IMG/VR virus record: IMGVR_UViG_3300032246_001663
Coordinates: 1 to 45,132 of that record
Reading direction: 5' to 3' (one strand)
Length of the DNA: 45,132 nt
DNA from: a virus
The translations under genes were made by a program, and so were the position numbers. The notes under the pieces are model-generated. The model worked only from the letters and a program-made list of their open reading frames with translations, searched no databases and had not been told where the DNA came from. Below are positions 34,490 through 35,953 of the stretch, piece by piece. The stretch's first letter is position 1; every line of letters begins with the position of its first letter.

Positions 34490-34773
34490 AAACCGCTAAC
34501 GACTTTTACGACCGGGCGGAACTACTCGGCCGCCTGTGCCTGCGATTGATCCTGTCGCCGCCACGATACACAACACGGCAGACCGCCGACGGTGGCTCAG
34601 TGTATCAAGCCAATTTGCGCCGACGTGAGCGCCGCATACATCAGTATCAAAAGGAACGGACCTTATGCAACATGATCGGCGCTCATATGGAATTTTTCGG
34701 GACGCTGCACGACGCGCCGCACGTCCCAGCGAAAATGAAACTACTGCATAAAGCCAGATATGAACTTTTATAA
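34486..34773 (+). CDS. Unknown basic early protein
   Basis: A 95-residue, Arg-rich protein (RAELLGRLCLRLILSPPRYT, then LRRRERRIHQYQKERTLCNM). Mostly helical, no recognised domain. Overlaps the methyltransferase gene by 14 bp and the preceding gene by 4 bp. Basic character suggests nucleic-acid contact. Confidence 0.55.
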   Translation: MKTANDFYDRAELLGRLCLRLILSPPRYTTRQTADGGSVYQANLRRRERRIHQYQKERTLCNMIGAHMEFFGTLHDAPHVPAKMKLLHKARYELL

Positions 34774-35953
34774 CGAGATTGACGAATACGCCGCGCAATG
34801 GTTGCGCAATTTAATCGCAGCCGGGCACATCGCGCCCGGCGTAGTTGACACCCGAAGCATTACGGAGATTTTCCCAGATGAGCTGCAACAATACACACAA
34901 TGCCACTTTTTCGCCGGAATCGGCGTCTGGTCATACGCCTTGCGCCTTGCAAAATGGCCAGACAGTCGAAAAGTCTGGACAGGCTCATGTCCGTGTCAAC
35001 CTTTCAGCGCGGCTGGCGGACGTGGCGGGTTTAATGACGAGCGGCACTTATGGCCGCATTGGCATTGGCTCATCGAACAATGCCGCCCTGATGTTATTTT
35101 TGGCGAGCAAGTTGCAAGTGCTGACGGGCTCGGTTGGTTCGATCTTGTACAATCTGACTTGGAAGGCGCGGGTTACGCCTCAGCAGCGTTTGATTTATGC
35201 GCTGCGGGCGTCGGTGCGCCGCACATCAGGCAGCGCCTGTATTTCGTGGCCTACTCCAGCGACGCGAGATTACAAGGGCGAATCGGGCGCGGGGCGACAG
35301 GAACGGAAAGGGTATCCGGCGGTTCTGACATCTTGGCCGACACCGCAAGCGATAGACGGATCTGGGCAGGGGAGGGCTCCGAGGCTGAAGCCGGACGGCA
35401 ACAGGGACCCGATGTCGGAGGGGTCATATCGGGCGGATCTGAAAGATGCGGAATGGTTGGTTCTGAGCAAACCGCCTTATTTGGAGTTAGCACCGTGGCC
35501 GACACCAGTGAGGAACGACGAGAACAAGAGCCGAACATCAAGACCGCAGGAGTTTTCGGAAAAGGAATACAACAGGAAAAACTCGGGCAGCAGTCTGGCG
35601 ATATGGGCGCAACATCTTGCAGCGTGGCCGACACCGAATTGCATGGATACAATCGGGAGGCGGTCGGACGAAGCTCTGGCGAGAGCGAAACAGAAAGGGG
35701 GCTGCAGCAATCTGAAAGATGTCGCGCCGATGGTGGAGAGCAACACCCCGGCCCGACTAACGGTCACTGGCGATCTGCTGACTGGCTCCTGTGCAGAGAT
35801 GGAAAGTGGCGGCCAGTTGAACCCGGCACATTCCCGCTGGCTCATGGGGCTCCCGGCAGAGTGGGACGCTTGCGCGCCTACGGTAACTCCATCGTCCCGC
35901 AAGTCGCGCAAAGTTTGATATCTGCGTTTTTAGGGTCAGAAAGTGAGCTATAA
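34760..35953 (+). CDS. DNA cytosine-5 methyltransferase (Dcm-like)
   Basis: A 397-residue C5 methyltransferase: motif I FFAGIG (50-55), motif IV PCQPFS with the catalytic Cys (78-83), motif VI as GEQV (115-118) in place of ENV, motif VIII HIRQRLYFVA (155-164), and a C-terminal motif X RAYGNSIVPQVAQ. The region between VIII and X is a long, low-quality linker with repeated VADT, where a specificity domain would normally be; the same bases encode WPTP repeats in another frame. It may methylate phage DNA against host restriction. I saw no cognate restriction enzyme. Confidence 0.85.
   Translation: MNFYNEIDEYAAQWLRNLIAAGHIAPGVVDTRSITEIFPDELQQYTQCHFFAGIGVWSYALRLAKWPDSRKVWTGSCPCQPFSAAGGRGGFNDERHLWPHWHWLIEQCRPDVIFGEQVASADGLGWFDLVQSDLEGAGYASAAFDLCAAGVGAPHIRQRLYFVAYSSDARLQGRIGRGATGTERVSGGSDILADTASDRRIWAGEGSEAEAGRQQGPDVGGVISGGSERCGMVGSEQTALFGVSTVADTSEERREQEPNIKTAGVFGKGIQQEKLGQQSGDMGATSCSVADTELHGYNREAVGRSSGESETERGLQQSERCRADGGEQHPGPTNGHWRSADWLLCRDGKWRPVEPGTFPLAHGAPGRVGRLRAYGNSIVPQVAQSLISAFLGSESEL
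34878..35918 (+). CDS. Long overlapping gene inside the methyltransferase (WPTP-repeat protein)
   Basis: A 346-codon frame, shifted +1 relative to the methyltransferase and lying wholly inside it. It reads as a coherent protein: LMTSGTYGRIGIGSSNNAAL, LTWKARVTPQQRLIYALRAS, four WPTP motifs (SWPTPATRD, SWPTPQAID, PWPTPVRND, AWPTPNCMD) and LNPAHSRWLMGLPAEWDACA near the end. I recognise this text from proteins found beside phage cytosine methyltransferases, so it is unlikely to be a chance frame. Each WPTP lies where the other frame has VADT or a variant. ATG 34878 has CGGAG ten or so bases upstream; TTG 34845 is an alternative. Role unknown, perhaps target recognition or a partner subunit. Confidence 0.7.
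   Translation: MSCNNTHNATFSPESASGHTPCALQNGQTVEKSGQAHVRVNLSARLADVAGLMTSGTYGRIGIGSSNNAALMLFLASKLQVLTGSVGSILYNLTWKARVTPQQRLIYALRASVRRTSGSACISWPTPATRDYKGESGAGRQERKGYPAVLTSWPTPQAIDGSGQGRAPRLKPDGNRDPMSEGSYRADLKDAEWLVLSKPPYLELAPWPTPVRNDENKSRTSRPQEFSEKEYNRKNSGSSLAIWAQHLAAWPTPNCMDTIGRRSDEALARAKQKGGCSNLKDVAPMVESNTPARLTVTGDLLTGSCAEMESGGQLNPAHSRWLMGLPAEWDACAPTVTPSSRKSRKV

Follow-up and report, generated by a model that had tools for sequence, protein, structure and literature searches.

In the window analysed here, a stretch of 45,132 nucleotides of viral DNA, a C5-cytosine DNA methyltransferase appears to be encoded as two polypeptides, a catalytic alpha chain and a beta chain that would carry the TRD array and motif IX and whose gene lies nested inside that of alpha (Table 1). 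This reading of the sequence, in which both chains would be translated and the enzyme would be active, is given a probability of about 0.85. Selection acts on both frames, the internal start is conserved, the cassettes of the nested frame have been traded between phages, and single-chain homologues exist. The preliminary description of this DNA had proposed a +1-shifted frame of 346 codons, running from an ATG at 34878 to a stop at 35918 and contained entirely within the methyltransferase, which was confirmed. The motifs that it had assigned to the methyltransferase (I, IV, VI, VIII and X) were all found in the alpha frame, and the four WPTP motifs that it had counted in the nested protein begin at the first positions of the four cassettes. 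Its statement that the other frame reads VADT opposite WPTP held in part, since alpha reads LADT, VADT and VADT over the last three motifs and VAYS over the first.

In the proposed scheme, the normal motif order (I-VIII, TRD, IX, X) would be kept, but the small domain, comprising the TRD and motif IX, would be written in the +1 frame. Alpha would consist of the catalytic Rossmann domain, a disordered linker across the DNA of the small domain, and motif X. Beta would initiate at an internal Shine-Dalgarno sequence and ATG, and its poorly constrained N-terminus would be followed by a conserved helix and hairpin, which likely dock on alpha, then by the four WPTP cassettes and a motif IX-like end. 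The two chains would assemble into an active enzyme, whose cassettes would touch the DNA and fix the target specificity, probably for several targets, as in tandem-TRD phage methyltransferases, and the resulting methylation would shield phage DNA from host restriction.

Table 1. Features of the methyltransferase locus, in window coordinates
Feature	Position	Strand	Remarks
alpha, C5-cytosine methyltransferase catalytic subunit	34760..35953	+	397 aa; PF00145 1.7e-13; phrog_363 9.5e-87
GGAG, Shine-Dalgarno-like	34864..34867	+	10 nt upstream of nested ATG 34878; from sequence
beta, nested +1-frame protein, putative TRD and motif IX subunit	34878..35918	+	346 aa
alpha motif I, FFAGIGVWS	34907..34933	+	
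alpha motif IV, GSCPCQPFS	34982..35008	+	invariant columns
beta N-terminal conserved helix and hairpin, SNNAALMLFLASKLQ...GSILYNLTWK...LRASVRR	35076..35216	+	near-invariant columns; pLDDT mostly 86-93
alpha motif VI, FGEQV	35099..35113	+	
alpha motif VIII, IRQRLYFVA	35225..35251	+	first beta WPTP starts within its last codons
beta cassette 1, WPTPATRDYKGES...	35247..35333	+	cassette catalogue
alpha linker, disordered, residues about 180-332	35297..35755	+	AF2 pLDDT below 50; beta cassettes overprint it
beta cassette 2, WPTPQAIDGSGQGRAPRLK...	35334..35495	+	recurs in L003, L008, L024
beta cassette 3, WPTPVRNDENKS...	35496..35624	+	
beta cassette 4, WPTPNCMDTIGRRSDEALARAKQKGGCSNLKD...	35625..35747	+	
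beta motif IX-like block, GQLNPAHSRWLMGLPAEW	35811..35864	+	profile matches single-chain actinophage methyltransferases, best 3.7e-8
alpha motif X, YGNSIVPQ	35879..35902	+	

Distribution and annotation of the nested frame

The nested frame was found by tblastn in 213 phage records. Additionally, viral contigs were scanned blindly for a DNA pattern encoding the nested C-terminal motif EWLMG[WF]PxGW. Of the 120 loci returned, 114 show alpha at an identical +1 offset, and four of the remaining six are truncated by a contig end. Among the loci on genome contigs, the arrangement is nested in all cases (80/80). A standalone, non-nested WPTP family, which had been expected from the DNA-pattern scan, was not found, as those ORFs overlap an alpha too.

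Annotation pipelines mostly overlook the nested subunit. Both frames are annotated in Leyra_61/62, K1H gp32/33 and PhiXhv-18, and alpha alone in epsilon15, BcepC6B and the E. coli RefSeq prophages. In Mycobacterium phage Bipolar (L246:1133-1684), the nested gp69 is annotated as hypothetical and the overlapping catalytic methyltransferase frame is left unannotated. Prophage copies were also seen in 45 E. coli genomes (H153-H182), for which RefSeq gives a DNA cytosine methyltransferase only and names no nested subunit under the match. The genes of M.EcoHK31I and M.EaeI were sought through plasmid matches, and the Klebsiella aerogenes plasmid so obtained carries a broken copy among phage genes and no R-M locus.

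Selection on the two frames and the internal start

The openness of the nested frame was compared with a null model in which the methyltransferase frame of the viral relatives was aligned and synonymous codons were shuffled within each gene. For the window gene, such shuffling produced a mean of 6.7 nested-frame stops and left the frame open in fewer than 1/1000 shuffles. Homologues whose nested frame is broken by stops, which the preliminary description had named as evidence against its proposal, proved rare: across alpha codons 46-370 of 80 viral homologues, the nested frame holds 3 stops versus 251 expected (minimum 218 in 300 simulations), and the subset retrieved by the alpha query alone holds 1 versus 70. 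When the nested protein was held fixed, the alpha frame of the 80 loci showed 0 stops versus 549 expected, which bears out the earlier impression that both frames are selected. Alpha codons 5-40 provide an internal control, in which nested-frame stops are at background (85 versus 74; 28 versus 24), and the drop begins at codon 41 (1 versus 22, then 0 versus 9). The start at 34878 agrees with this pattern, with stops at background before alpha codon 40 and gone afterwards. A beta start at 35034, where amino-acid constraint sets in, was ruled out, since stops are already depleted at the earlier alpha codons 41-60. In E. coli dcm, which encodes a conventional enzyme, the +1 frame contains 14 stops.

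Codon-position rates were computed over gapless, well-aligned stretches of 31 independent pairs. In the geometry of the two frames, the alpha wobble is the nested second codon position and the alpha first position is the nested wobble. Alpha codons 1-40 follow the pattern of an ordinary gene (about 0.30 at position 3 and 0.05-0.09 at position 1), nested-frame constraint sets in around alpha codons 41-92, and the alpha wobble is suppressed from codon 81 onward, the synonymous-rate suppression that had been proposed as a check. The first 40 residues of beta have no amino-acid constraint. Along the linker (alpha codons 172-330), changes stand at 0.205 for position 1 and 0.026 for position 3, and an independent set from bacterial genomes replicated the result (0.313 and 0.054, respectively). 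Linker substitutions fall at the nested wobble and spare the nested second base; therefore, only the nested protein is constrained in this region, through which alpha still has to stay open. The earlier proposal that the nested frame is the main constraint there is thus upheld.

A +1-frame ATG lies at about alpha codons 28-45 in 65 of the 80 loci, and a Shine-Dalgarno-like motif precedes 45 of the 74 candidate starts, versus a background of 19%. Both elements occur together at this place in 48/80 loci versus 15.9 expected (maximum 25 in 200 shuffles). Additionally, the Arg of alpha VDERSIEDV is encoded by AGG in 27/78 loci versus 31/835 catalytic-half Arg codons elsewhere (p 5e-16), and it is this codon that forms the Shine-Dalgarno-like AGGAG ahead of the nested start. 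The conserved Shine-Dalgarno sequence and ATG are the predicted start of the nested protein, from which its translation would proceed.

Architecture of the two proposed chains and their relatives

The alpha chain has the features of a C5-cytosine DNA methyltransferase (PF00145), namely motifs I, IV (PCQ), VI (ENV/EQV) and VIII (QRxRxxxV) together with the catalytic fold. Its AF2 model has high confidence for most of residues 1-166 and for the motif X end; residues from about 180 to 332 are disordered. The best Foldseek match of this model was M.HhaI (E 4e-8), over 174 columns that correspond to the catalytic part. As modelled, alpha comprises a catalytic domain and motif X, and where the small domain would be expected there are about 150 disordered residues. 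Neither motif IX nor a TRD was found within the alpha chain, whose residues 180-332 are disordered, and both were placed in the +1 frame. In some relatives, alpha carries one in-frame TAG, at the motif I Trp (L049, and also L050, L052 and L054) or at the motif VI Glu (L044), with the nested frame intact; these codons might reflect nonsense alleles, errors in the sequencing or recoding.

The AF2 model of beta has a mean pLDDT of 56, with the cassettes below 50, and is confident only for the helix (67-86), the hairpin (91-113) and, moderately, the C-terminal helices; a Foldseek search with this low-confidence model gave no fold match. Profile matches were obtained to phrog_1008 (1.9e-36), which is not wholly independent because this family might include single-chain members, and to phrog_31772 (6e-28). 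Pfam gave no family for the nested frame at E up to 10, NCBIfam likewise gave nothing, and the sole match in a PDB sequence search was a histone, judged to be due to chance. The nested-tail profile did not match motif IX of E. coli Dcm, and motif IX is therefore assigned to beta by position and by the single-chain homologues.

Among these homologues, Mycobacterium phage Moonbeam gp69 carries motifs I-VIII, PTP cassettes (LLPTPSAADGGGG..., LLSTPQARDYKG...), RLHPAFPEWMMGWPAGW and motif X, all in one frame, and its actinophage tail block reads EWMMGWPAGW. It matches the alpha family over residues 1-364 (1.7e-71) and the nested family over 203-366 (4e-49). The nested C-terminus profile matches Jarcob gp70 (3.7e-8), Chanagan gp83, Moonbeam gp69, Camperdownii gp75 and Neville gp75, in each case just upstream of motif X, and the cassette profile matches Camperdownii gp75 (7.4e-10) and Jarcob gp70 (0.0019) three times each. 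Since single-frame proteins match both the cassette and the tail profiles, the WPTP cassettes correspond to the TRD slot and the LNPxxSxWLMGxPxxW block to the motif IX slot.

The relatives can be arranged as a series from a single chain (Moonbeam), through an overlapping split in which the recognition half carries motif X (Jumbo and Camperdownii), to the nested form with motif X on alpha (the window and most others). In Gordonia phage Jumbo, the part with the TRD, IX and X comes after alpha in the +1 frame, and the two overlap only briefly. The actinophage loci (L247:1009-2112, L242:1712-2491, L249:1361-2101 and L243) run from the single-chain Moonbeam to the split Camperdownii gp76/75 and Jumbo. 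Chanagan gp83 (L248) and Neville gp75 (L251) have a PTP cassette in the +1 frame and motifs IX and X in frame 0, which may represent an intermediate arrangement or a decayed cassette. In another locus (L211:8559-9537), the nested C-terminus DWVEWLMGWPIGWTDLKPL is joined to alpha in one frame and motif X is absent, as if by an indel.

Cassette exchange was observed among five near-identical phage genes (L004, L005, L006, L067 and L072), whose chief differences are the gain, loss or swap of WPTP cassettes, and both frames remain open at every change. The cassette WPTPMAGTPAQ... was found repeatedly across unrelated lineages. Tandem exchangeable modules thus occupy the TRD position, as in multispecific tandem-TRD methyltransferases. 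By analogy with the tandem-TRD Bacillus phage enzymes (PMC8936443), we infer that the cassettes are exchangeable specificity modules.

Alternative explanations, implications and known systems

Conserved genes that are GC-rich can give rise to long open +1 frames, and the unconstrained first 40 residues of beta would also suit a nested frame that is an untranslated by-product of composition and alpha conservation. However, this explanation is extremely improbable given the stop depletion under the synonymous null, the constraint on the nested frame in the linker, the conserved internal Shine-Dalgarno sequence with its rare Arg codon, and the stops in the +1 frame of E. coli dcm. A translated product of another kind, a regulatory or unrelated protein whose gene simply happens to overlap that of the methyltransferase, such as a hidden homing endonuclease, has a precedent in the ShiLan methylase insertion, since HNH endonucleases are known to lie out-of-frame within phage methylase genes (PMC11855218). 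No HNH domain was found in the alternative frame among Pfam families at E up to 10, the association is near-universal rather than a patchy insertion, and the same modules fill the TRD slot of single-chain methyltransferases, all of which make an unrelated protein very unlikely. Of the two roles suggested in the preliminary description, that of a target-recognition subunit is supported by the single-chain actinophage relatives with the same cassettes, and that of a regulatory subunit found no positive support.

Programmed frameshifting, by which alpha and the nested frame would be fused into one product (I-VIII, TRD, IX) and independent beta would be minor or absent, would fit the existence of single-chain homologues and the short +1 overlap of Jumbo. 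As the principal route it is nonetheless very unlikely: a shift at motif VIII would bypass the constrained upstream region with its confidently folded helix and hairpin, motif X would be lost by a single shift, and the internal ribosome-binding site is conserved. Frameshifting may still yield an extra product beside a separate beta.

The two-chain reading with a nested beta would account for phage hypothetical proteins of a very common kind (WPTP...WLMGxPxxW) and would mean that the E. coli RefSeq annotation names only the catalytic half of the enzyme. It would also provide a large, well-supported family of long same-strand genes that are fully nested. Codon-changed expression from the annotated ORF would ruin the other subunit, so that the enzyme could be wrongly judged inactive. 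Beyond this locus, we lean slightly towards the view that phages commonly encode the methyltransferase recognition domain as nested, out-of-frame, swappable cassettes, whose exchange would add or change a target; if so, many unannotated nested genes would be modular multispecific recognition subunits, and the cassette array would offer a direct route from phage sequence modules to methylation targets.

A literature search for WPTP proteins or nested phage methyltransferase subunits found no description of either. The two-polypeptide precedent, M.EcoHK31I, is already known; no description was found of how widespread the arrangement is, or of a nested array of swappable cassettes. The beta gene of M.EcoHK31I lies in an alternative frame inside alpha, and the small subunit of the window is likewise encoded in an alternative frame within the large one. 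Alpha of M.EcoHK31I carries motifs I-VIII and X as well as the predicted TRD, and its beta carries motif IX, both chains being required (PMC3404938). As compared by published description, the window resembles M.EcoHK31I and M.EaeI in having an alpha with motifs I-VIII and X and a small subunit to which motif IX is assigned from its position and from the single-chain homologues. It differs from the published account of M.EcoHK31I in where the TRD lies: the alpha linker shows neither order nor constraint, and TRD-like cassettes, four in number, are found in beta.

The two halves of M.AquI have only a small overlap. Its beta chain holds part of the variable region, IX and X (PMC3404938). As in M.AquI, the catalytic and recognition halves of the window enzyme would be two polypeptides from overlapping frames, but motif X belongs to the alpha frame and beta lies entirely within alpha; the Jumbo and Camperdownii relatives appear closer to M.AquI. 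The Bacillus phage enzymes M.SPRI, M.Phi3TI and M.H2I are multispecific methyltransferases with several tandem recognition modules (PMC8936443), and the window resembles them, by arrangement, in placing several tandem modules in one phage methyltransferase, whereas they are single-chain and single-frame. Moonbeam gp69 shares with the window a homologous catalytic part, PTP cassettes, WMGWPxGW and motif X, but everything in it is written in one frame, without nesting.
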